Assembly: GCA_020852855.1 (NCBI GenBank)
Contig: JADZAA010000056.1
Location: 1 to 35,784, forward strand
DNA length: 35,784 nucleotides
Direction: 5' to 3'
Origin: Bacteroidota bacterium
GTDB lineage: Bacteria; Bacteroidota; Ignavibacteria; Kapaibacteriales; UBA961
How positions within the stretch are numbered: the first letter of the stretch is position 1; each line of letters starts with the position of its first letter. Below the pieces are notes generated by a model that was given only the letters and a program-made list of their open reading frames with translations, was not told where the DNA came from and did no database searches. This document shows positions 1 through 12,264 of this stretch, in pieces. Made by a program: the position numbers and the translations under genes.

Positions 1-117
1 ATCATGTTAGAAAAGCTCGTAGCTTAAGCGGTTTGAGTATCTTATTCTGCTCCTTTGTTCTTTCAAATATTTCCCCTTTTTCTAAACATTAAAAGTAATA
101 CTTTACAAACATAGGAA

Positions 118-246
118 GCGGTTTGGCAAAATAGCGGGCAAAGTGCTTCGTATAAAACTTTTTCGTAAATTTGAGCATTCGTGCTTCGTATCAAAGGTAG
201 TGTTGAAAATCCGCCGCTACGCAAAGCCGAGAACCGTTGTGTGCAA
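118..246 (+). repeat. Cassette-boundary-like structured repeat, copy A
   Basis: Landmarks in order are GCGGTT (118-123), GTGCTTC (143-149), GTGCTTC again 38 bp later (181-187), then AACCGTTGTGTGCAA (232-246). The same landmarks occur in the same order and almost the same spacing at 2528-2640. CGGTT at the left (119-123) can pair with AACCG at the right (232-236), so a folded single strand would bring the ends together, as in integron attC sites. GTTGTGTGC (236-244) is the exact reverse complement of GCACACAAC at 2501-2509, beyond the nuclease gene. The boxes do not match the classical GTTRRRY/RYYYAAC consensus, so the attC reading is by layout only. A left outer box for this copy is not clearly visible. 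Confidence 0.5.
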
Positions 247-281
247 CCTTAAAAAAACGACAGTAAGCAGAAAAATAATTT

Positions 282-2483
282 ATGAAAACAGAGAGCCATT
301 CAATAAATGACGTTTTAGCGAAAAATGCTACATCATTTTTTATTCCACCATTCCAAAGAGCTTATGCTTGGGGAAAGCCTGAAATTGAGAGATACTTTAG
401 TGATGTGTCGCGAATAATTGAATCGCATTTGGACTCCAAGCAACACGACAAGCTGGAACACTTTTTCGGGACTATTGTAATCAAAGAAGAAAAGGCTGGA
501 TTTGCAAATAAATCGGTTGTTGTTGATGGGCAACAAAGACTTACCACAACATTAATTTTTTTAATTGCATTAAGAGATATAGAAACAGACCCGGTCAAAC
601 AAGACTTCATAAATCAAAATTATCTGACAAATAACTCATCATCATTTCAAGATAAAATTAAACTTAAACAAGTCACAAAGGATTGGGATGCCTACAAAGC
701 ACTTGTAAACAAAACCCAATCAAACCCGGGGGTCATAAGCAATGCTTATGACTTACTAAAAAGACTTATCAATGAAAAGAAAAGAATTAAACCTGAAGTT
801 GATTTTGAGCATTACATTATTGCAATACAGCGAATGAATATTGCTGTTATTTTTCTTGACGAAAGACCATTTAAAGGCGAAGACCCACAAATAATATTTG
901 AAACATTAAACTCATTAGGCAAGCCACTAACTCTTTCAGACCTTGTTAGAAATTTTATACTCTTGAATATGGAGAGTAAAAATCAATCTGATATTTATGA
1001 GAAGATATGGCATCCAAAAATTGAAGAAGTCCTTTTTGAGAACACTTCAAAATTTTTTAGAGACTATTTGCAATACAAGACAGCGAGTTCGCTTAAGGTT
1101 GTGAGCGATAATAACACAAAAGAACTTTATCAACAATTTAAGGACTTTGTTGAAACAGGATTTGAAAATCACAATGCTTTTATCAATGACATTGTACGAT
1201 ATGTGAAATGTTACAAATGGATTACTACCGAAATAAACAATGGTATAATTTCGAATAACAATTCCAACGACAAGGAAATAAAGGAGCTGCTTAGAAACAT
1301 CTTCCACGACATAAAAGCTGAGGCATTCAAACCTTTTGTTTTGGGACTATTGGAGTATCATCAATATACAGTTGAAGGTATAAAACTTAGTGACGAAATA
1401 TTGATATCAACTCTTTCGTCAATTAGAACATATTTGATAAGACGCAGAGTTTTAGGATTAGCACAAGGTGAGAATAAAAATATTGTGTTGCTTAGCAAAA
1501 AAATTGAGAACCTTGCCAAGGGCAACATTTCAATACTTGAACTTCTTACAAATATGTTTTATAGATTACGATTGCCAAATAATTCAGAAATGAGTTCCGC
1601 TTTTATATCTATGAATTTCTATGAAAGCCTAAAACAGTATTCAAAACTAATCTTAGGTAAGATAGAAGAACATAACTCAAAAGTTTCTGTGGACTTCCGA
1701 AATCCTAAAATTACAATTGAACATATAATGCCTCAGAAGTTAGATGACAGTTGGAAAGTGGAGTTAGGTGAACATTTTGAAGAAATTCACAAGAATTACC
1801 TACACAATATTGGCAATCTTATTCTAACAGAGTTTAATAGTGAAATAGGCAATAAATCTTTTGAAGAAAAGAAAAGAAAACTTAACACTTCATCGCTAAA
1901 TTACAGGCTTGGTGTGATTAAAAGACACATTTGGAATGAGCAAAGCATCAAAGAGCATCAATCTAATATGGTAAATTGGTTTCTAGAAACTTTTCCACTT
2001 CCTGAACAATATAAGTATAAAGCGAATTGGAACACACAAACAATTGAAAGTACATTATTCTCTCCGCTCGACACAGATGCAGGGGATATTGCAGAAGGCA
2101 ACAAACCAATAGAACTTCAGATTTTTGACGACATTATCAAAGTTAACTCTTGGCAGGACGTGTTTATAAAGTTCTTGAAATATTTAAAAGATAAACCCGA
2201 ATATGACTTTGAGTATATATTGGACAATCAACTTGAAATATTTAAACGTGATGAAACTATTTTAAAATGGGGTTCATTAAAGGAGTTAATAGATTCAAAC
2301 ATTGATTTGACTGGTAGATATAAAACTTTTGACGGTAAGGTTTGGGATAAGATAAAGGAGTTAGATGATGACTTACTGTTTATTCATATCAATATTTCAG
2401 CTTCAAACTGTATGTCAAGAATTGCAAGTGTTATGCAGAAATTATTTCTGCCTGACGACTCAATTCAAATTAAATTAAAGTGA
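282..2483 (+). CDS. GmrSD-like DUF262/DUF1524 nuclease, probable phage-defence protein
   Basis: A 733-residue single-chain protein of the DUF262-DUF1524 (GmrS-GmrD fusion) type. The N-terminal DUF262 part shows PPFQRAYAW (residues 22-30) and VVVDGQQRLTTT (79-90); in this family that motif binds and hydrolyses nucleotides. The DUF1524 part has an HNH-type centre, TIEHIMPQ (about 478-485), with a following Asn/His-rich stretch NYLHNIGN (about 505). Relatives are modification-dependent or otherwise anti-phage endonucleases. Some 130 residues after the HNH part form an acidic C-terminal extension that I do not recognise. The gene is AT-rich and stands alone. It is flanked by complementary 9-bp boxes and repeat copies A and B, which suggests arrival as a mobile cassette. 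The start follows no clear Shine-Dalgarno. Family assignment is secure; the defence role and its trigger are inferred. Confidence 0.88.
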   Translation: MKTESHSINDVLAKNATSFFIPPFQRAYAWGKPEIERYFSDVSRIIESHLDSKQHDKLEHFFGTIVIKEEKAGFANKSVVVDGQQRLTTTLIFLIALRDIETDPVKQDFINQNYLTNNSSSFQDKIKLKQVTKDWDAYKALVNKTQSNPGVISNAYDLLKRLINEKKRIKPEVDFEHYIIAIQRMNIAVIFLDERPFKGEDPQIIFETLNSLGKPLTLSDLVRNFILLNMESKNQSDIYEKIWHPKIEEVLFENTSKFFRDYLQYKTASSLKVVSDNNTKELYQQFKDFVETGFENHNAFINDIVRYVKCYKWITTEINNGIISNNNSNDKEIKELLRNIFHDIKAEAFKPFVLGLLEYHQYTVEGIKLSDEILISTLSSIRTYLIRRRVLGLAQGENKNIVLLSKKIENLAKGNISILELLTNMFYRLRLPNNSEMSSAFISMNFYESLKQYSKLILGKIEEHNSKVSVDFRNPKITIEHIMPQKLDDSWKVELGEHFEEIHKNYLHNIGNLILTEFNSEIGNKSFEEKKRKLNTSSLNYRLGVIKRHIWNEQSIKEHQSNMVNWFLETFPLPEQYKYKANWNTQTIESTLFSPLDTDAGDIAEGNKPIELQIFDDIIKVNSWQDVFIKFLKYLKDKPEYDFEYILDNQLEIFKRDETILKWGSLKELIDSNIDLTGRYKTFDGKVWDKIKELDDDLLFIHINISASNCMSRIASVMQKLFLPDDSIQIKLK

Positions 2484-2500
2484 CGGTGAACAGAAAGGCA

Positions 2501-2640
2501 GCACACAACAGCACCTACCCAAAAGTGGCGGTTCAGGGGTTAAATCAATCTTTGTGCTTCTATCAAAGTTTCTGCTTGGCTGACAGTTTAGTGCTTCGAA
2601 ATAGCCACCTTCGGCAATATCCTGTAACCGTTAGCGGCAA
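2501..2640 (+). repeat. Cassette-boundary-like structured repeat, copy B
   Basis: The element starts 17 bp after the nuclease stop codon with GCACACAAC (2501-2509), the exact complement of GTTGTGTGC at 236-244. It continues with GCGGTT (2528-2533), GTGCTTC (2554-2560), GTGCTTC (2591-2597) and AACCGTTAGCGGCAA (2626-2640). Internal pairings visible by eye are GTGGC (2525-2529) with GCCAC (2604-2608), CGGTT (2529-2533) with AACCG (2626-2630), and a small hairpin CTTTG/CAAAG (2550-2568). This two-tier pairing with unpaired interior resembles a folded attC recombination site. GTTAGCGGC (2630-2638) would be the 5' box of the following nhaA unit. An ORF crossing this region (2480-2746) looks spurious. 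Confidence 0.55.
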
Positions 2641-2745: not shown

Positions 2746-4095
2746 ATGAACAAACCGAAAAGTGCTCCAATAGACAAAATAAATAAGCCTATTCAAAAAT
2801 TCATACAAAACGAAAAAGCCGGAGGAATTGTCCTTGGAATAAGTGTAATTATTGCTCTGATTTCAGCCAACTCACCTTTATCTCACTCGTATCATCACTT
2901 TTTTGAACAGAAATTAGGATTTCAATTTAATGGAATTACCTATTTGGAATACAGTTTTCATCATTGGATAAATGATGGATTGATGGCTATTTTCTTTTTT
3001 GTGGTAGGATTAGAACTTAAAAGAGAAATTATTGCAGGAGAATTGTCTAATCCTCGAAAAGCAATGCTCCCTATTTCTGCCGCAATCGGAGGTATGCTTG
3101 TTCCTGCATTAATTTATTCGGGGTTAAATCCAGCAGGAGATACGCATAGTGGTTGGGGTATTCCGATGGCTACGGATATTGCTTTTGCTTTGGGGGTTCT
3201 GTATTTGTTAGGTAATAGAATCCCGTTGAGGTTAAAAGTTTTCTTGACAGCTCTTGCCATCGTTGATGATTTGGGAGCGGTTCTAGTTATTGCATTTTTT
3301 TATACTTCAGATATTTCGATGATGAGTCTGCTTATAGGAACGGCTTTTCTTTTAGCAATGTACATTGGAAATAAAATGGGTATCAGAAGTGTCGTTTTTT
3401 ATGCAATATTAGGTGTTGGAGGCGTTTGGACTTCATTTTTGTTATCGGGTGTCCACGCTACCATTGCAGCAGTTTTGGCAGCATTCACCATTCCTGCTGA
3501 TGTAAAAATCAAAGAAAATATTCTGATTGCAAGAATAAAAAAACATCTTGCTCATTTTTCTGCGGCTGACCCCAATGTTAAAATCCCAACACTTACCAAT
3601 GAACAACTCCATATTTTAGAAAAAGTATCTTCGGACACGGAAAAAGCTATACCACCATTACAAAAGTTGGAACACGCAATGCATCCGTTTGTATCGTTTA
3701 TCATTATACCGATTTTTGCGTTGGCTAATGCAGGAGTTTCGGTTTTGGATATTGAATTAGAGCAGTTATTCAATACCAATGTGGCTATAGGAGTGGCTTT
3801 GGGATTATTAGTAGGAAAAGTTGTGGGAGTGGTCGGCTTCACTTGGCTCGCTGTAAAGTTTAAAGTTGCTCTGTTTCCGGAAGGAATGAACCTGAAAAAC
3901 CTTTTAGGATTGGGCTTGTTGGCTTCAATAGGATTCACGATGTCTTTGTTTGTAACCGAATTGGCATTCTCACATGAAGAGTATAAAGTACAAGCAAAAG
4001 TTGGAATTTTTGTAGCATCTATCGTTGGTGGAATATTGGGGTATATGGTTTTGAGCAGACAAAAACCGAAAGAACAAGCGTATGGAAATTTATGA
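2746..4095 (+). CDS. nhaA: NhaA-type Na+/H+ antiporter
   Basis: A 449-residue inner-membrane secondary transporter that exchanges cytoplasmic Na+ (or Li+) for external protons, used in pH and salt homeostasis. The family hallmark is the paired aspartates in AIVDDLGAV (about residues 174-175), equivalent to Asp163/Asp164 of the E. coli enzyme, preceded by MATDIAFALG. Many hydrophobic helices and the late helix GFTMSLFVTELAF also fit. The protein is somewhat longer than E. coli NhaA; the extra residues are mostly in a hydrophilic loop around 265-305. A Bacteroidota-like -7 sequence TATATTTA (2707-2714) and the purine tract AGAGAAATA precede the start. Composition is AT-rich like the nuclease gene, and the gene follows repeat B, so it is probably also acquired. 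No complement of its 5' box GTTAGCGGC is found downstream, so the unit may be truncated or the last of an array. Confidence 0.93.
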   Translation: MNKPKSAPIDKINKPIQKFIQNEKAGGIVLGISVIIALISANSPLSHSYHHFFEQKLGFQFNGITYLEYSFHHWINDGLMAIFFFVVGLELKREIIAGELSNPRKAMLPISAAIGGMLVPALIYSGLNPAGDTHSGWGIPMATDIAFALGVLYLLGNRIPLRLKVFLTALAIVDDLGAVLVIAFFYTSDISMMSLLIGTAFLLAMYIGNKMGIRSVVFYAILGVGGVWTSFLLSGVHATIAAVLAAFTIPADVKIKENILIARIKKHLAHFSAADPNVKIPTLTNEQLHILEKVSSDTEKAIPPLQKLEHAMHPFVSFIIIPIFALANAGVSVLDIELEQLFNTNVAIGVALGLLVGKVVGVVGFTWLAVKFKVALFPEGMNLKNLLGLGLLASIGFTMSLFVTELAFSHEEYKVQAKVGIFVASIVGGILGYMVLSRQKPKEQAYGNL

Positions 4096-4250
4096 GCAAG
4101 AAAATAATAAATACTATGTTTTACCGCAATAAGGAGGATCGCCGTAAAGTGGTACTCTCCTTTTTCGAGAATATATCGAACTATAAAGACGAGTCGGTTG
4201 CCCTGCCGACTCTGAATTTCCATATTCGAAAATTGCAAAATGATTCGTAA
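4092..4250 (+). CDS. Small hypothetical ORF (52 aa), possible remnant at the island junction
   Basis: A 52-codon ORF whose ATG overlaps the nhaA stop as ATGA, giving a possible translational coupling. The translation is mixed and hydrophilic, with segments such as DRRKVVLSFFENIS and LPTLNFHIRKLQNDS that look more like a piece of a real globular protein than random frame. Base composition changes here toward that of the native genes downstream. I favour the 3' end of a native gene cut off by arrival of the upstream AT-rich block, but a genuine small gene or chance ORF cannot be excluded. No family recognised. Confidence 0.3.
   Translation: MSKKIINTMFYRNKEDRRKVVLSFFENISNYKDESVALPTLNFHIRKLQNDS
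4131..4165 (+). terminator. Weak hairpin plus T-run after nhaA
   Basis: AAGGAG (4131-4136) can pair with CTCCTT (4157-4162), ending in five T. The stem is short and the 20-nt loop is large, and the hairpin lies inside the 52-aa ORF, so the two readings compete. It would terminate nhaA transcription before the convergent ABC transporter gene. Confidence 0.2.
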
Positions 4251-4338
4251 CGAGTAGAAAATAGTTGCCCGGTAGCTCTGTATCTTTTTCTTGCAGCTCT
4301 ACGCATTCTTTTTTTTGAAAAAGCAAATCATTAGTTTT

Positions 4339-6123
4339 TTATGAGAATTGAAGTCTGGATAAATTGGCGTAAATGCTGTCCGGATTTGCAGAAAGTTCGT
4401 CGTGGGTGCCGTGTTCCACGATTCTGCCGCCGCTGAACACGTAAATCCTGTCGCAACGTCTTACGGTAGAAAGGCGGTGTGCAATAATAACGGTGGCACG
4501 ATTGACGGCTAAACGCTCTATGGCTTCTTGAATAAGGTATTCTGACTGTGAATCGAGAGAGCTTGTTGCTTCATCGAGAATAAGTATAGGCGGGTTCTTC
4601 AGTATTGCGCGTGCTATCGCTATTCTTTGACGTTGCCCGCCGGAAAGTTGTACGCCGCGCTCGCCGACTATGGTTTGAAGTCCGTCGGGAAGCCTTTCGA
4701 TAAATTCGGCGGCATTCGCAAGCTCGGCCGCACGCCACACTTCTTCATCGCCGGCATCTAAATTGCCGTAGCGAATATTCTCGGCAATAGTTCCGCCGAA
4801 CAGAACTATGTCTTGCGGAACTGCGCCTATATTGCGGCGAGTGTCTGCAAGAGATAATTCGGCCGACGAGGTTTCGTCATAGAAAATACGTCCGGCCGAC
4901 GGCTCGTAAAGTCTTTGTATAAGTGCGGCCGTTGTAGTTTTTCCGGCACCGCTTTCGCCTACGAATGCTATACGTTCGCCGGCGCGAAGCTCGAATGAAA
5001 CATCGCGCAAAGCCGGTGCGTCGCGTCGAGTGGAATAAACGAAACTGACACGTTCGAAGCGCACGGAGCGAAGAGTAATCGAAGCATCGCTTTCTTTTGT
5101 TGGTTCGGTTTTCATATCAAGTATTTCTTGAACACGGCCGGTTGCGCCTAATGCCTTTTGAACTTGCCCGAACAGCTCGGCGAAACTTCCCATCGCGCCG
5201 CCTACGAACATTGCGTATATCAGAAATGTGGCAAAATCTCCCAAAGTAATATCGCCTGCGCGAACAAGTGAAACGCCGTACCATACAACGCCGGCAATTC
5301 CCCCGAAAAATGCAAAAATGACGAATGAAACGAAAGCCGAACGGAGTTTTGCCGTGGCCACTGCAAGTTCCACCGTAACATTAAGCGCACCGAGATAGCG
5401 TGTGGTTTCATAAGTTTCGTTAGAATAAGATTTTACGCTGACTATTGCCTGAAGAGCCTCTTCCGTTATCGTCGCCGAAGCCGCCAAAGCGTCTTGAGTG
5501 CGGCGGCTGTAAATACGTATTTTACGCCCGAACAGCACTGCAATTGCTATGAGAACGGGCATTGCTATCAGAATAGGTATTGTAAGCGGCAAACTCTGCG
5601 TCATTATGAAAATTATGCCGCCAAACAAAAAAATGGTTTGCCGCAGCATCTCGAGCATAGTGAAAGTCAGAGTTTCTTGTATTGCAGCCAAGTCGTTTTT
5701 TATGCGCGATATTAACTCGCCAACGCGATTCTCGGCAAAAAACGACATCGGGAGCCGTAAGATATGCCCGAAAGTGGCAGAGCGTATTTCGGCAATAATA
5801 TTTTCGGTAATGCGAACTAATTGTATTGAAAAATAATAGCGAATTACGGCCGGAACGATGAGTAGCCCCGCCAGCGACCAAGCAAGCGTAGCTACGGTCA
5901 TGGGTGCGCGTTCAGGATGTAAAACAGCATCGAAAATTAAACCGAGTAACTTCGGATAAAGCAGAGCAACACCTGTTGCCAGCAACATTATCGTAAGTGA
6001 AAGAATTGTTTTCAGCAGATGCGGACGATAATATTTCAATATAAAAGACGCTTGCTTGCGAGAGGACTTGACGGATATTTGCGGCTTTTTGAAAGCGGGA
6101 GACATTGGCTCGATTATACTCAT
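4339..6123 (-). CDS. MsbA-like ABC exporter (fused membrane and ATPase domains)
   Basis: A 594-residue half-transporter of the ABCB/MsbA type that would work as a homodimer in the inner membrane. An N-terminal membrane domain with about six hydrophobic helices (about 40-325) is followed by an ATPase domain. Walker A GESGAGKTT lies near 388-396, the Q-loop in GAVPQDIVLFG, the ABC signature LSGGQRQR near 491-498, Walker B ILILDEATSSLD near 512-523, and the switch histidine in IIAHRLST near 548. All catalytic residues are intact. Members export lipids (lipid A core), drugs or peptides; the substrate cannot be told from sequence, though kdsB across the divergent promoter region makes an LPS-related lipid reasonable. 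No accessory subunit gene is adjacent and no clear terminator was seen downstream. Confidence 0.92.
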   Translation of the reverse strand: MSIIEPMSPAFKKPQISVKSSRKQASFILKYYRPHLLKTILSLTIMLLATGVALLYPKLLGLIFDAVLHPERAPMTVATLAWSLAGLLIVPAVIRYYFSIQLVRITENIIAEIRSATFGHILRLPMSFFAENRVGELISRIKNDLAAIQETLTFTMLEMLRQTIFLFGGIIFIMTQSLPLTIPILIAMPVLIAIAVLFGRKIRIYSRRTQDALAASATITEEALQAIVSVKSYSNETYETTRYLGALNVTVELAVATAKLRSAFVSFVIFAFFGGIAGVVWYGVSLVRAGDITLGDFATFLIYAMFVGGAMGSFAELFGQVQKALGATGRVQEILDMKTEPTKESDASITLRSVRFERVSFVYSTRRDAPALRDVSFELRAGERIAFVGESGAGKTTTAALIQRLYEPSAGRIFYDETSSAELSLADTRRNIGAVPQDIVLFGGTIAENIRYGNLDAGDEEVWRAAELANAAEFIERLPDGLQTIVGERGVQLSGGQRQRIAIARAILKNPPILILDEATSSLDSQSEYLIQEAIERLAVNRATVIIAHRLSTVRRCDRIYVFSGGRIVEHGTHDELSANPDSIYANLSRLQFS

Positions 6124-6224
6124 TTAAGGCTGATTCTTGTTCTTAAGGCGTTTTTTGATGTATTATGACGTTCGGAAAACAACGCTATTTGAGAAATAAT
6201 GCTTTTACAACGCCCAATAAACGG

Positions 6225-6232
6225 TAAATTTG
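6225..6232 (+). promoter_or_regulatory. Candidate Bacteroidota-type -7 element for rsmI operon
   Basis: TAAATTTG fits TAnnTTTG and lies 61 bp before the rsmI start, in the 170-bp divergent gap to the ABC exporter gene. No convincing TTTG at -33 accompanies it, so this is only a candidate. Confidence 0.25.
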
Positions 6233-6293
6233 CGCTTTATTGCGCTGCTTCCTATTCGGATTTTATGCCTAAAATACAAGTGTACGGCAACTG

Positions 6294-7001
6294 ATGTCTG
6301 AAAAAATATTTACTCTGAAACCGGCTTTGTATATTGTTCCGACACCTATCGGCAATATAGACGATATTACTGTACGCGGACTTAAAACTCTGCGTGCAGC
6401 CGATATTGTTTTTTGTGAAGACACCCGCGTAACCGGAAAATTGTTAAAGATTTACGGAATAGTGCCGCAACGCTTGGCAAGTGCGCACGAGCATAACGAA
6501 GCGCGTCAGTCGGAGCTGGTTGCAGCAGAGATAAAAGCCGGTAAATCTGTGGTTTTGGCGAGTGATGCCGGTTCGCCGCTAATATCCGACCCGGGCGCAC
6601 GAATCGTGGCTGCCGCGATTTCCGCAGGAGTAGAAATTGTACCTCTGCCGGGCGCAACGGCTTTTGTTCCCGCGCTATCAGCAAGCGGATTTGATTGCTC
6701 GGAATTTACGTTTTTTGGATTTCCGCCGTATAAAAAAGGACGTGCTTCATTCCTAAAGCGAGTATCCGAAACGGCAACCGTAAGCATTTTGTACGAATCT
6801 CCGCATCGCTTAACGGTTTTGTTAAATGAACTTACATCGCTTTGCGAACCTTCCAGAAAATGTTGTGCAGCGCGTGAGCTGACGAAATTGCACGAAGAAA
6901 TACTGCGTGGCACTCTGGCTGAATTAGCCGCGCATTTTACTCGTACAGAGCCGCGAGGCGAATTTGTGGTGATATTGGACGGAGCGCAACGAGATGAATA
7001 A
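6294..7001 (+). CDS. rsmI: 16S rRNA (cytidine1402-2'-O)-methyltransferase RsmI
   Basis: A 235-residue SAM-dependent methyltransferase of the tetrapyrrole-methylase fold, which adds the 2'-O-methyl group at C1402 in the decoding centre of 16S rRNA. The family signature is at the N-terminus: YIVPTPIGNIDDITVRGL, then FCEDTRVTGKLL, the conserved SDAGSPLISDPGARIV loop, and FFGFPPYKKG further on. It is shorter than the ~285-residue E. coli enzyme because the C-terminal extension is missing; the catalytic domain itself is complete. Its stop codon lies within the kdsB start region (8-bp overlap), so the two are very probably co-transcribed. No strong Shine-Dalgarno precedes the chosen ATG. Confidence 0.93.
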   Translation: MSEKIFTLKPALYIVPTPIGNIDDITVRGLKTLRAADIVFCEDTRVTGKLLKIYGIVPQRLASAHEHNEARQSELVAAEIKAGKSVVLASDAGSPLISDPGARIVAAAISAGVEIVPLPGATAFVPALSASGFDCSEFTFFGFPPYKKGRASFLKRVSETATVSILYESPHRLTVLLNELTSLCEPSRKCCAARELTKLHEEILRGTLAELAAHFTRTEPRGEFVVILDGAQRDE

Positions 7002-7761
7002 TACGCGCATAATAGGGGCAATTCCGGCGCGATACGGTGCGTCGCGCTTTCCGGGCAAACCGCTTGCGGATATTGCCGGTAAAACCATGATTCACCGCGT
7101 TGTCGAGGCTGCAATGTACGCAAACTCTTTGAGCCAAATAATTGTGGCTACCGACGATGAGCGTATTGCTCAAGAAGCGGAAAAGGCCGGAGCCGTTGCA
7201 ATTATGCCCGAAGGTGATTTCCCTTCCGGCACGGACAGAATATTTGCCGCCTTACAAACAGCGAATATTTCTGCAGACATTATCGTGAATATTCAGGGCG
7301 ACGAACCGTTGCTAAAGTCATCGCTGATTGATGATTTGGCACGTGCCGCCGTGGAAAGCGGTGCTGATGTTACTACGCCGGTAGCACGTGTTCGCTCAAC
7401 GGAAGAACTCGAAAATCCGGCAGTTGTGAAAGTCGCAATCGCAAAAAACGGTCGGGCTTTGTATTTCTCAAGGTCTGTAATTCCGCATATTCGCGGCGCA
7501 ATGCCAAAAGATTGTATTGACAGTGGTCTGTATTTTAAGCACATAGGACTTTACGCCTATCGTCGCAAGGCATTGGAACGCTTCGCATCGTTGCCGCCTT
7601 CGCCGTTGGAACTTGCCGAAAGCCTTGAACAATTACGTTTGCTTGAATACGGCGCGTCTTATTATTGCGTAGAATGTGAGACGACTTTGTACGCGGTTGA
7701 TACACCGGCAGATGCGGAAATTGTACGCAAAATTCTCTCTGAACAACAGAAAACAAAATAA
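6994..7761 (+). CDS. kdsB: 3-deoxy-manno-octulosonate cytidylyltransferase (CMP-Kdo synthetase)
   Basis: A 255-residue enzyme that activates Kdo with CTP to CMP-Kdo for the inner core of lipopolysaccharide. Family motifs are IPARYGASRFPGKPL at the nucleotide-binding N-terminus, VATDDERI, the substrate loop PEGDFPSGTDRI, and IVNIQGDEPLL; the C-terminal part contains HIGLYAYRR and ELAESLEQLRLLEYG. Length matches the family (about 250). It overlaps the end of rsmI by 8 bp and pheT follows after 23 bp, so it sits inside a mixed housekeeping operon. Its presence says the organism makes a Kdo-containing outer membrane. The other Kdo genes are not in the window. Confidence 0.96.
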   Translation: MNNTRIIGAIPARYGASRFPGKPLADIAGKTMIHRVVEAAMYANSLSQIIVATDDERIAQEAEKAGAVAIMPEGDFPSGTDRIFAALQTANISADIIVNIQGDEPLLKSSLIDDLARAAVESGADVTTPVARVRSTEELENPAVVKVAIAKNGRALYFSRSVIPHIRGAMPKDCIDSGLYFKHIGLYAYRRKALERFASLPPSPLELAESLEQLRLLEYGASYYCVECETTLYAVDTPADAEIVRKILSEQQKTK

Positions 7762-7784
7762 TCCCGAAAAATAATTACTCCTGC

Positions 7785-10217
7785 ATGAAAATTTCCTATA
7801 ATGCCTTGCTTGAATTTGCCGCAATACCGTATACGCCTGCGCAAACAGCCGATATACTTACTATGCTTGGAATTGAAGTAGACGCGGTAGAATATCAACG
7901 TACCCGCTACGAAAATTTTTTCATCGGCGAAATACTTGCGAAAGAAAAACATCGCGATGCCAAGAAACTTTCTGTTTGCGAGGCAACCGTAGGCGGTGCG
8001 TCGCGGCGGATAATCTGTGGTGCGCCTAATGTGGCTGCCGGACAGCGCGTAATAGTCGCATTGCCCGGAGCCGTAGTTCCGTCGAACGGCTTGGAAATAG
8101 GCGAGCGTATTATTCGAGGCGAACATTCGTCCGGTATGATTTGCAGCAAAGCCGAGCTTGGAATTGCCGACGAAAGCGACGGGATATGGGTGTTGCCCGA
8201 CGACGCACCCGTCGGACTGCCGTTAGCCGACTATCTTGGCGAAAACGATGTTGTTTTTGATGTAAGCCTGACGGCGAATCGTGCAGACTGTTTAAGTCAT
8301 ATCGGTATAGCGCGAGATTTGGCGGCTTTCGCCGGAATAGATTTTAAAGTGGCTAAAGCAACAGTACCGGAAAATAATGCACGACAAATTGAAAACAGTC
8401 TTTCGGCGGAAATATCGGATGCAGAAAAATGTCCGCGCTATGCTGTGCGCATTATACGCGGTGTTAGCATCGGCGAATCGCCGGAATGGTTGCGGCGGCT
8501 GCTTATTTCGCTCGGATTCCGTCCGCGCAATATAGCGGTTGATGTTACAAACTATGTGATGGCGCGCTGCGGGCAGCCTTTGCACGCATTTGATTACGGT
8601 AAAATTGCACAAGGAAAAATCATTGTAAAAACAGCTGGAAACGGCGAAAAATTTATTACGCTCGACGGAAAAGAGCGAATTTTAGATGAAGCAATGACGG
8701 TTATTTGCGATGCAGAAAAGCCAATTGCCATTGCCGGAGTAATGGGCGGTAAAAACAGCGAAATAACCGGCGAAACAACCGTAATAGCACTTGAATCGGC
8801 TTATTTTCAGCCTTCTTCCATACGTAGAACAGCAAAAAAATTAGGATTGAGTACAGACGCTTCGCATCGCTTCGAACGCGGAGTGGATTACGACGCAAAC
8901 ATTATTTACGCTCTGGATCTGGCCGCAACCATGATAGCCGAACTCGGCGGCGGAAGCGTTGATGCCGGGCGTATAGATTTGTATCCAGCACCTATTGCGC
9001 CGCCGGAGATTACGTTGCGCTATCGTCGTGCAACAGAATTGTTGGGTGTTGATATCGAGCCGCCGAAAATGCGTGATTTTATCGTTGGACTTGGTTTCGA
9101 AATCATTTCGGAAACCGAAAGTGAACTGACCGTAATTGCTCCTTCGTGGCGCGTGGATATGGATCGGGAAATTGACCTTGTCGAGGAAATTGCACGATTG
9201 TATTTTTACGACAAAATAGAACCGTCAACAGTGTATACCGCGCCTAATACAATCGAAATCACGGCAGATTTTGCATCGCCTGAAATGCGTGAAATTATTC
9301 GTAAGTTCTTGGCACATCGCGGCTTTAATCAGATTTACTGCTACAACTTTACCGATGCGGAAACCGCCGCGCTTAACGGTGAAAAAGCAGTTGCAACAGC
9401 AAATCCTTTGGGCGAAGAGTTCGCAGTATTGCGTACTTCGGCACTGCCTTCGATGTTGAGCGTAATTTCCGGAAATATACGTGCCGGAGCAGAGACCGTA
9501 GCTTTATTTGAAATAGGCCGAATATTCCGCACCGCACAGCCCGAATATCGTGCTTTTACACCAGGAATAGAGGAGCGTGAAACCGTTGTTTTCGGACTTT
9601 CGGGGAATATAAACGAACTGCATTGGTCGGCAAAACCGCGTAGTGTCGATTTTTACGACGCAAAAGGAACTGCCGAGGATATACTTGAATACTTGGGAAT
9701 TGCGGCAACTTTTCGTCCTACGGAAACAGCACGAAACGGATTCACCGTAAACTCCGTTACAGTCGAGATTTCCGCAGAATCGGGCGAAACTGTCCGGCTG
9801 GGAATTGTAGGAGAAATATCCGCAGATTACCGCGAGCGATACGACTTGCCGCAATCTGTATTTTGTGCCGTATTCGACGCAGATGCACTTTATCGCGTAA
9901 AAATTGAAAATCCACGTTACAACAAAATATCGCCTTTTCCTGTGGCAGAGCGCGACGTGGCTTTCACGCTCGACGACAGCGTCGGCGCGGCTGCATTACT
10001 TGGCATTATACAGCGCAACGGCGGAGAGTTCTTCCGTTCGGCCTCTGTTTTCGATTTATTTTCCGGCGGTTCGCTTGGTGCGGGTAAAAAATCGATAGGG
10101 GTACGACTAAAATTTGCATCAAGCGAAAAAACACTGACCGAAGCAGAAATTTCGGCTGCAATGCGGACCGTTACCGAGTCTGTTGCGCAGGAACTCGGCG
10201 GCTTTTTGCGTTCGTAG
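7785..10217 (+). CDS. pheT: Phenylalanine-tRNA ligase beta subunit
   Basis: An 810-residue cytoplasmic subunit of the alpha2-beta2 phenylalanyl-tRNA synthetase. Order of parts is an N-terminal region, an EMAP-type tRNA-binding OB fold (about 40-150, with GVTVG-like core KLSVCEATVGG and ICGAPNVAAGQRVIVA), the editing B3/B4 region (about 210-385, with VTNYVMARCGQPLHAFD and DASHRFERGVDYD), B5 (about 405-475), the catalytic-like core (GFNQIYCYNFTD), and a C-terminal FDX-ACB anticodon domain (about 715-808, PFPVAERDVAFTLDD). Length is typical. The catalytic alpha subunit gene pheS is not adjacent, unlike the common pheST order, and must lie elsewhere. It follows kdsB by 23 bp in the same direction. 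Confidence 0.96.
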   Translation: MKISYNALLEFAAIPYTPAQTADILTMLGIEVDAVEYQRTRYENFFIGEILAKEKHRDAKKLSVCEATVGGASRRIICGAPNVAAGQRVIVALPGAVVPSNGLEIGERIIRGEHSSGMICSKAELGIADESDGIWVLPDDAPVGLPLADYLGENDVVFDVSLTANRADCLSHIGIARDLAAFAGIDFKVAKATVPENNARQIENSLSAEISDAEKCPRYAVRIIRGVSIGESPEWLRRLLISLGFRPRNIAVDVTNYVMARCGQPLHAFDYGKIAQGKIIVKTAGNGEKFITLDGKERILDEAMTVICDAEKPIAIAGVMGGKNSEITGETTVIALESAYFQPSSIRRTAKKLGLSTDASHRFERGVDYDANIIYALDLAATMIAELGGGSVDAGRIDLYPAPIAPPEITLRYRRATELLGVDIEPPKMRDFIVGLGFEIISETESELTVIAPSWRVDMDREIDLVEEIARLYFYDKIEPSTVYTAPNTIEITADFASPEMREIIRKFLAHRGFNQIYCYNFTDAETAALNGEKAVATANPLGEEFAVLRTSALPSMLSVISGNIRAGAETVALFEIGRIFRTAQPEYRAFTPGIEERETVVFGLSGNINELHWSAKPRSVDFYDAKGTAEDILEYLGIAATFRPTETARNGFTVNSVTVEISAESGETVRLGIVGEISADYRERYDLPQSVFCAVFDADALYRVKIENPRYNKISPFPVAERDVAFTLDDSVGAAALLGIIQRNGGEFFRSASVFDLFSGGSLGAGKKSIGVRLKFASSEKTLTEAEISAAMRTVTESVAQELGGFLRS

Positions 10218-10266
10218 CGACGCATTGCGTATTTTTGCAAGTTATCTATATTTTTCGGCGGCGATT

Positions 10267-12264
10267 ATGTTCGAACAATACATCGAAGACCAAAAAAAAC
10301 GGTTGCAAGGTTGCATTGAATTGACAGCAGCCTCGCACAACGGATTTACGTCGGCTTCACTTCTGAGTGAAAGTCCGCTCATTCCCGATGCTTATCGCCG
10401 TTATTTTGCTGCCGAAATAAAACGAAGAACACGGGAAATGTGCTCGGAACTGTTGAAAAATCCACATTTTTTAATAACGGAAACAAGTAGTGTTTTTATC
10501 GAACAATTTGAAAAGACTCTGCAAAATACGGCAATATTTTCCGATGCGGAACTTGCTCAAATAACAGATGATGCAGTTAAGACGCGGCTTAATTATTTAT
10601 GCAGGCCAAGAATTGCGCTTAAATGGTTCGTTTTCGGCGAAAACAAAGAATTAAATGCAGAAGAAATATGCATGCGGCTCAATTATTTGTATGATTACGA
10701 ATATTTAATTGAAGGGGTGCGGAAAATAATCGGCGACTGCACACGGCCGGCAGATAAAATGTTGCTTGAAGATGTGCTCGTGCAAGCCGTTGAGAGTATA
10801 GACAACGATTATATTTTTGACCTGACTCCGCGCCAATTCGTTGATATACTTGCACCTCTTTTCGATTTCTTTTCGCCCGACAGCTCGCTCGGCACCGAAA
10901 AATCCATGCCAACCGAAGCATTGGTCGTTTTTCTTGACGATAAGCACGTAGAGCCTATTGCGCAAGAAATGGAGCGTCTTTATCACGATGAAAACTGTAC
11001 TGAAATAACGGAATCTATTTTTCTGAAAATAGTAACCGATATTCTTGATACCATTGATGAATTCGAGGCGGAAAATAAAACTGTAAATACAGTCGGTACT
11101 TTATCCGAAATAAATACGGAAATTGTAAAAAATACAGATATACAAAGCGATGGTATATCCGGCGGATTTATTGCCGCACCCGGCGAATTTGCGGCTGTAT
11201 TGGCTGCGAAAGAATTTATTGCTCCGGAATTTATAGAAAAAGAAAAACCGAAAATATTTACTGTGAAATTTGCGCCGGAACCTGCCCGATCGTTTGTTGA
11301 AGCACTCGACGAACCCGACGCTGCCGTAATATCGCCCGACGAACTGAAAGAATCGCTGATAGAAATAGAACATATCGCAAAAGAAGCCGCCGAAACATTC
11401 GATAAAGTTACGGAAATAATCGAGGCAATAGACGAACATTTAACGCAAGAATATTCGGACGATTGCAAAAACAATGCTGCTTGCAATGCAAATTCCGATG
11501 CAGAAAATTGCACAGACGAAGCCCGCCTTTCGGAGGAACAGCCGCGTTGCGACGAAGTAACAACAGACGAAAAATATACGGTTTGCGATGTAGAGGATAC
11601 TGAAATTTACATAGAAAATAATGCTGACATTATTGATGCAGATTTTATCGATAATATTGAAGATATACAGCCTGAAAATATAGAGAACAATTATCTGTCG
11701 GAAGAATTGCCGCATTTCGACAAAGCGGAGGCGGAACACGATATTTCCGTTCCCGAAGCAGATGCACTTATTGACGACAACATAGAAAATTACGAAAATA
11801 TTGCCTCGGAAATCATTGATGCCGATGAAGTTGTTGCCTTAATGCTTGAAAGCGAAAAATTATCGGAAAACGGTAAAAACATCGAATATTCGATGTTTAA
11901 CATAATTACACACGATGAAATTATTAATGAAAACGACAATTCTACAAGTGCAGACACGTCGAATTTAGATAAGAAAATAAATACTGAACAATTCGAGCCG
12001 TTTAACGAATCCGCCGTGGCGCAAGCAACGCATTATCCGAAATTTTCTGCCATACTCGGCGATAAGCGTGAGCGTTACATCAAAAAACTGTTTGAAAAAG
12101 ACGAATCTGTGTTTCAGCAATTAGTCGATGAAATTGATGCAAGCCCGTCTTGGAAAGCGGCTGCGCAGATTTACGACAATTTTCTCATTGACCGCGCCAT
12201 ACCGCTTGATAATTCGCTCGCAATCGAATTCCGCAATATGATAAAATCTCGTTACGCGGCATAG
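10267..12264 (+). CDS. Large acidic protein of unknown function (665 aa)
   Basis: I do not recognise this protein. The reading frame is open further upstream into pheT, but the first ATG clear of pheT is at 10267 and gives a sensible start. Three parts are visible: an N-terminal ~260 residues of mixed helical character (rich in aromatic and hydrophobic residues, e.g. LNYLCRPRIALKWFVFGENK and a related LNYLYDYEYLIEGVRK), a middle of some 300 residues dominated by Asp, Glu, Asn, Ile and Ala that is probably disordered or coiled, and a C-terminal ~75 residues that look folded again (HYPKFSAILGDKRERYIKK, WKAAAQIYDNFLIDRAIP). There is no signal peptide or membrane segment, so it should be cytoplasmic. 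It lies 49 bp after pheT and 30 bp before obg on the same strand. It might bind a basic or nucleic-acid partner through its acidic middle, but this is a guess. Confidence 0.8.
   Translation: MFEQYIEDQKKRLQGCIELTAASHNGFTSASLLSESPLIPDAYRRYFAAEIKRRTREMCSELLKNPHFLITETSSVFIEQFEKTLQNTAIFSDAELAQITDDAVKTRLNYLCRPRIALKWFVFGENKELNAEEICMRLNYLYDYEYLIEGVRKIIGDCTRPADKMLLEDVLVQAVESIDNDYIFDLTPRQFVDILAPLFDFFSPDSSLGTEKSMPTEALVVFLDDKHVEPIAQEMERLYHDENCTEITESIFLKIVTDILDTIDEFEAENKTVNTVGTLSEINTEIVKNTDIQSDGISGGFIAAPGEFAAVLAAKEFIAPEFIEKEKPKIFTVKFAPEPARSFVEALDEPDAAVISPDELKESLIEIEHIAKEAAETFDKVTEIIEAIDEHLTQEYSDDCKNNAACNANSDAENCTDEARLSEEQPRCDEVTTDEKYTVCDVEDTEIYIENNADIIDADFIDNIEDIQPENIENNYLSEELPHFDKAEAEHDISVPEADALIDDNIENYENIASEIIDADEVVALMLESEKLSENGKNIEYSMFNIITHDEIINENDNSTSADTSNLDKKINTEQFEPFNESAVAQATHYPKFSAILGDKRERYIKKLFEKDESVFQQLVDEIDASPSWKAAAQIYDNFLIDRAIPLDNSLAIEFRNMIKSRYAA

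Follow-up and report, generated by a model that had tools for sequence, protein, structure and literature searches.

Near the start of the window (the whole 35.8 kb stretch of DNA analysed here; the boxes, sites and genes described at this locus are on the + strand) lies an ORF of 733 aa (282-2483) between two 9-mers. The 5' box, GTTGTGTGC, occupies positions 236-244 and its exact reverse complement, the 3' box GCACACAAC, positions 2501-2509; neither occurs again within the window, where 0.21 occurrences would be expected. The 5' box ends at 244, ahead of the start codon at 282, and the 3' box begins 17 nt past the stop codon. A sequence-only reading had reported these box positions and their exact complementarity, which held, and the box-to-gene spacings, which held within one base. 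The encoded protein matches both Pfam domains of the GmrSD type IV restriction endonuclease family, GmrSD_N (1.3e-31) and GmrSD_C (5.9e-25), in a single chain, and the Orf5/HEC-06 models of PADLOC (down to 1e-93). By its domains it is a GmrSD-type nuclease; cleavage of modified or glucosylated phage DNA has not been shown. The listed GmrSD relatives on plasmids (25-29% identity) yielded no cassette comparison.

Both ends of this segment are marked by attC-like sites, as identified with R1, a covariance model trained on 56 sequences. The upstream site E0 (116-238; 51.7 bits, E 1.7e-9) lies outside the training set, while site E1 of the nuclease cassette (2507-2632; 77.8 bits) is among the training sequences. 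The 5' box sits where a box is found at the attI junctions described below. Following the box rule, the predicted cassette unit (237-2630) begins with the TT of the 5' box and ends with the G of the following GTT. It is made up of a leader of 45 nt, one gene and a tail of 147 nt, lengths that are usual among 91 other forward single-ORF cassettes, in which leaders have a median of 44 nt and tails of 144 nt. The next unit would begin with the box GTTAGCGGC (2630-2638), placed relative to E1, for which an exact mate was sought downstream and not found. The following gene, encoding an nhaA Na+/H+ antiporter (2746-4095; PF06965), could perhaps be the next cassette after loss of its attC, although this is only inferred.

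Taken by itself, the pair of boxes is weak evidence and mildly surprising at most, since an exact complementary 9-mer pair was found in the near flanks of 2 of the 54 window ORFs reaching 100 aa or more and in 0.6% of shuffled flanks. Its weight comes from the recurrence of the box rule at defined positions in other cassettes. An unanchored search for box pairs returned chance pairs in great number, and boxes alone were discarded as evidence.

The attC sites of the window cassette look damaged, and the cassette may therefore no longer move. When contig starts were aligned, the left end of E0 was found to be swapped for a sequence resembling an insertion sequence end, which is common to contigs C7 and C17 of the source genome. 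In E1 the inner helix is intact and the outer arms are unpaired in the alignment, so that E1 is likely a hybrid site. Neither E0 nor E1, folded singly, was more stable than its shuffles. GC content is 32-39% up to about 4 kb compared with 44-50% in positions 4001-11000, and a multicopy repeat of about 180 nt follows nhaA at 4080-4260. Together, the replaced end of E0, the unpaired arms of E1, the repeat and the GC shift suggest that this copy has perhaps been left behind where an array was broken. The array may be cut, as the contig starts at window base 1; the assembly consists of 138 contigs.

Two side observations concern these sequences. The segment TAAAAGTAATACTTTACAAACATAGGAAGC borders three attC-like sites on their left, at the identical point of the site: in the window (88-118) and at the starts of loci L225 (C7) and L226 (C17). 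It resembles the terminus of an insertion sequence for which these hairpins would be the target. Copies of the 4080-4260 repeat (84-87%) occur on contigs C30, C24, C71, C15 and C40, and two of these copies share their contig with attC-like sites.

Complete loci, hairpins and the box rule

The DNA of the 2501-2640 element recurs in the source genome at 79% and 77% and is also found on plasmids of Emticicia, Chryseobacterium and Myroides. Contig C50 of the source genome carries a gene for a tyrosine recombinase of 344 aa (L013 8127-9161), followed by an attI-like site, the box GTTGGCTGC at 9229, an AIPR/AbiU-type gene, the box GCAGCCAAC at 11206 and an attC-like hairpin of 124 nt, with the two boxes complementary without mismatch. 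A second recombinase, 64% identical to the C50 copy, heads another array on C11, where two units with exact box pairs follow, GTTAGTGGC/GCCACTAAC and GTTGGCGGC/GCCGCCAAC, the latter containing an N6_N4 DNA methylase and a DUF6996/6997 partner. On a Chryseobacterium plasmid, a 64% relative of the recombinase lies immediately upstream of the array. As the cargo of the source genome consists of a GmrSD-type nuclease, an AIPR/AbiU-type gene and restriction-modification-like genes, defence storage is the most likely role of the system in this organism.

The sequence-only reading had proposed to look for the boxes with other cargo genes, for arrays and for a linked tyrosine recombinase. The boxes do recur with other cargo, and both arrays and a linked recombinase were found. 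Its description of the cassette as integrase-less held for the window contig only, since the source genome has two matching recombinases on C50 and C11.

Walking along chains of sites from attI sites and from four array starts without attI delimited 120 cassettes; the longest arrays count seven of them, and the attC-like sites have a median length of 124 nt. Where one ORF dominates the cassette, it is forward in array direction in 91 of 95 cases; leaders have a median of 44 nt (lower quartile 27.5) and tails of 144 nt. A first alignment of 11 elements gave only a weak consensus, and 56 aligned sites were needed. These 56 sites support a two-part helix, with compensatory changes at all 15 of its 15 pairs, pairing in 87.4% of cells vs 54.3% in shuffled alignments, and a covariation of 0.740 vs 0.188 (reached in 0 of 500 shuffles; 0.07-0.12 for slid versions). 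Across 114 sites the bottom strand was more stable in 67 and the top strand in 33 (p 5e-5), a small difference. An invariant A of the top strand lies opposite a nearly invariant C, which on the bottom strand would be a T.G pair.

The motif TATAWRNNR-GTTR is present 3' of the recombinase stop codon, about 100 nt away in most loci, and is followed by variable cassette starts in 70 of about 87 loci examined. The sequence after the motif differs between loci, as expected if cassettes enter there. Complementarity of the boxes was assessed in two ways. For 36 recombinase loci the downstream sequence extends over 1.5 kb or more; in 29 of them the first box has an exact 9-nt mate, required to end in AAC, within 3 kb, compared with a mean of 0.44 and a maximum of 4 in 200 permutations in which boxes were swapped among loci. 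In the second test sites were placed by R1 alone, which leaves out the box bases beyond AAC and GTT, and 72 consecutive pairs delimited cassettes. Here, 48 of 72 cassettes match at all six variable bases, whereas different cassettes match each other in 0.8% of comparisons and at most 6 of 72 matched in 2000 permutations. Among these loci, L053 had already figured in the first test, and some come from genomes represented in the R1 training set. Fifteen of the 72 pairs fall below a match of at least 5 of 6, several of them with a recurring sequence replacing the box. The two boxes flanking one attC were equal in 0 of 85 cases, as a crossover inside the box predicts.

In the place of the box where the rule fails, GTTCAGCAA and GATGGAAAA recur in L232 (G190 C2) and in L237-L239 of F. 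psychrophilum. It is possible that one element was repeatedly inserted behind attC, as this pattern would look.

The boxes are variable over about nine bases and only 7 of 100 fit GTTRRRY/RYYYAAC. The sequence-only reading had taken the misfit of the window boxes as a possible sign of a different class, which it is not by itself: in related genomes, the cassettes next to canonical IntI genes have variable boxes too and obey the same box logic, and as the canonical loci of the phylum depart from the consensus too, the misfit is a weak class criterion. The distinguishing features are rather the recombinase lineage and the type of attC-like site. The wider proposal, an integron-type cassette whose 5' box mirrors its own 3' site and which belongs to a different class in Bacteroidota-like genomes, is supported.

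The linked recombinase and its distribution

The recombinases behind which the attI-like motif is found are linked to the arrays but are not canonical integron integrases. In an alignment, an IntI-specific insertion of 33 residues is present in 15 of 15 canonical IntI proteins, and only 2 residues are found there in 23 of 23 members of the new clade. The additional domain near patch III is considered defining for IntI and necessary for its activity (PMC9668308, PMC8138268). In the phylogenetic tree (FastTree only, with long branches among the outgroups), 22 canonical IntI form one clade with a support of 100 and the attI-linked recombinases fall outside. TIGR02249 matches the C50 protein in two pieces with 207 bits, below the cut-off of 265. 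With the IntI domain missing and the recombinases outside the IntI clade, the system is not an IntI integron by the definition in the literature, though it appears to work like one. The best family for the C50 protein is NF040815 of NCBIfam (XerA_Arch, "site-specific tyrosine recombinase/integron integrase"), and an AlphaFold model of the L064 relative (pLDDT 84.5, pTM 0.57) is closest to the integron integrase 2a3v, followed by XerA.

The fold and domain plan of the clade are those of XerA and XerC/XerD. Unlike these, however, clade members sit at cassette arrays, many of them have an extra N-terminal domain, and the XerD- and XerC-like genes of the source genome are separate genes. In the protein P0001 the extra domain comprises residues 1-62 (KRIAVxFE...GARWS...WHLPD) before the Xer/IntI-like core; most close relatives have it and others are without it. 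The recombinase gene points in the same direction as the cassettes on C50 and in most loci examined, and is divergent in others. Recombinases that are more distantly related (45-51%) likewise stand at the head of arrays, co-directional with them in G006 and G155 and divergent in G190.

Within one class, R1 sites were found in 62 of 197 genomes, and they are associated with the recombinase (28 of 46 genomes with a recombinase match vs 34 of 151 without; p 2e-6), absence being defined as no match at E<=1e-60. The 34 site-bearing genomes without a match have to be explained by degraded platforms, by more distant recombinases or by an action in trans. Flavobacterium psychrophilum DSM 3660 (G423) has 68 attC-like sites in a genome of 2.6 Mb, some of which form tandem runs on contigs C23 and C44; in Flavobacterium sp. 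245 there are 34. No canonical IntI above the TIGR02249 cut-off was found in three genomes with 68, 34 and 15 sites, nor in the source genome, while 84 of 297 genomes of the phylum contain one. The recombinase loci belong mostly to Bacteroidota, together with one Ignavibacteria MAG and a few stray taxa. No description of the pairing of recombinase and cassettes was found in the open-licence literature searched, which included no preprints. IntegronFinder 2.0 reported one complete integron in Bacteroidetes proper (Salinibacter), besides Chlorobi and Ignavibacteriae (PMC9024848). Integrons have been reported as nearly absent from Bacteroidetes proper. Here, almost a third of the genomes of one class hold attC-like sites, and a gene-capturing system that is widespread in Bacteroidota has so far been largely overlooked.

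Among the cargo genes of the system are those for restriction-modification and abortive infection, as well as the plasmid-borne resistance genes blaOXA-347, blaMYO-1, aadS and estT. Exact boxes flank two of these, blaOXA-347 (plasmid of Myroides albus) and estT (Riemerella plasmid). The Myroides plasmid on which the 2501-2640 element recurs shows the layout of the window with other boxes and cargo, in the order GTTAGCGGG-[GNAT]-CCCGCTAAC-hairpin-[blaOXA]-hairpin-GTTAGCAGC-[blaMYO-1]-GCTGCCAAC-hairpin-GTTGTACGA-[aadS]-TCGTACAAT; here blaOXA breaks the box rule and blaMYO-1 and aadS have one mismatch each. Cassettes common to different loci were searched for and none were found.

On Myroides plasmids, pairs of an IS91 transposase and a tyrosine recombinase bracket the blaOXA/blaMYO-1/aadS cassettes (L011 1162-3140 and 7221-9199; L198), and attC-like sites abut such pairs. 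The IS91-linked tyrosine recombinase of L011 forms a long isolated branch in the tree. These enzymes were considered as the engine of the Myroides resistance cassettes, which remains a possibility.

Mechanism, alternatives and related systems

The window segment very likely belongs, as a gene cassette, to an integron-like system that occurs across Bacteroidota and is probably run by a XerA-type recombinase without the IntI-specific domain, whose activity is inferred. Such a recombinase would cut at G^TT and recombine two partners, an attC-like hairpin in its folded form and the double-stranded attI-like site that lies immediately behind the recombinase gene. Cassettes would enter there as circles, the linear form starting with (G)TT and six variable bases and ending with the cassette's own attC, the left box of which would be the reverse complement of the cassette start. 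Repeated entry would then produce arrays with mostly one gene per cassette and a single reading direction. Boxes, hairpins, arrays, the attI-like motif, the linkage to the recombinase and the missing IntI domain are shown, while catalysis, the strand used, the circular intermediate and present mobility are inferred and recombination itself has not been shown.

Like canonical IntI integrons, the system has a tyrosine recombinase gene with an adjacent attI-like site, arrays in one direction with mostly single-gene cassettes, and imperfect hairpins with complementary end boxes and an implied crossover at GTT. Unlike them, it has a separate recombinase clade without the insertion of about 33 residues, its own covariance profile of the attC-like site and few GTTRRRY boxes. 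The array end in the window can be compared to a CALIN, as it has two R1 sites at the contig start and none of the six PF00589 matches of the source genome on its contig, and so meets the criterion of attC sites without a nearby integrase. It differs, however, in that matching recombinases are encoded elsewhere in the source genome, on C50 and C11, and in that detection tools key on the IntI domain.

The alternative that survives best, though an unlikely one, is that these are ordinary integron cassettes (CALIN) moved by a canonical IntI, with the XerA-type recombinases as bystanders. In its favour are the 84 phylum genomes with an IntI, the cassettes of which obey the same box logic. Against it, there is no canonical IntI match over the cut-off in the source genome or in the three genomes with 15-68 sites, and the attI-like motif lies directly behind the XerA-type gene. 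In addition, R1 barely matches DNA near canonical IntI (one match at E<0.01 in 318 kb around 20 such genes) and matches the arrays beside XerA-type genes throughout. It is very unlikely that the dispersed hairpins are shuffled by homologous recombination or natural transformation with no dedicated recombinase involved. Some copies do resemble each other fairly well in the hairpin centre, E1 has the look of a hybrid, and transformation was the route in the Riemerella work (PMC13148043), but this process would not yield a cassette start complementary to its own far-end box or a fixed attI-like motif behind one gene family, and integration in that work was reported to occur without flanking homology. 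A chance origin of the 9-mer pair in the window, with the hairpin serving as a transcription terminator, is all but excluded, since despite the frequency of such pairs in shuffled flanks and the poor folding of E1, both E0 and E1 match R1 at positions that place the boxes exactly and the box rule holds in dozens of other cassettes.

With the XerA-type reading preferred, a bolder version of it appears likely, again with the activity inferred: a second integron lineage that captures genes by XerA-type attI x attC recombination throughout Bacteroidota, reaches the size of superintegrons, banks phage-defence genes and has carried resistance genes to plasmids in Myroides, Riemerella and Empedobacter. 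Should the linked recombinase be the active enzyme, the IntI-specific domain would be dispensable for integron function, survey tools would miss a whole branch, and there would be a candidate mechanism for resistance and defence genes of Bacteroidota that appear without flanking homology.

Such a case was described for Riemerella anatipestifer, where aph(3')-IVb was integrated upon natural transformation without flanking homology and by an unknown mechanism (PMC13148043, 2026); homology-independent integration in this species covers aph(3')-IVb, lnu(H) and blaRATA (PMC13148043). The aph(3')-IVb unit comprises exactly 27 bp before the gene and 140 bp after it, with a tail that folds like attC (PMC13148043). 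A short leader, an attC-like tail and movement as a unit, the last measured there for aph(3')-IVb, are shared with the cassettes described here, whereas that paper names no recombinase, attI or box rule (PMC13148043). The dimensions of 27 and 140 bp are near the lower quartile of the cassette leaders (27.5 nt) and the median of the tails (144 nt), although only dimensions and not sequences were compared. By analogy, the Riemerella unit would fit the anatomy of a cassette; a recombinase of the clade in strain ATCC 11845 has not been established.

Two further observations concern elements related to the arrays. Integrons are known to contain group IIC-attC introns, of which a group II intron reverse transcriptase within the Chryseobacterium array (L010 2767-4083) is reminiscent. 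In addition, element-like sequence (75% over 78 nt) occurs under an annotated DNA methyltransferase in the Flavobacterium phages hemulen, sniff and snork, with ten phage records in all.
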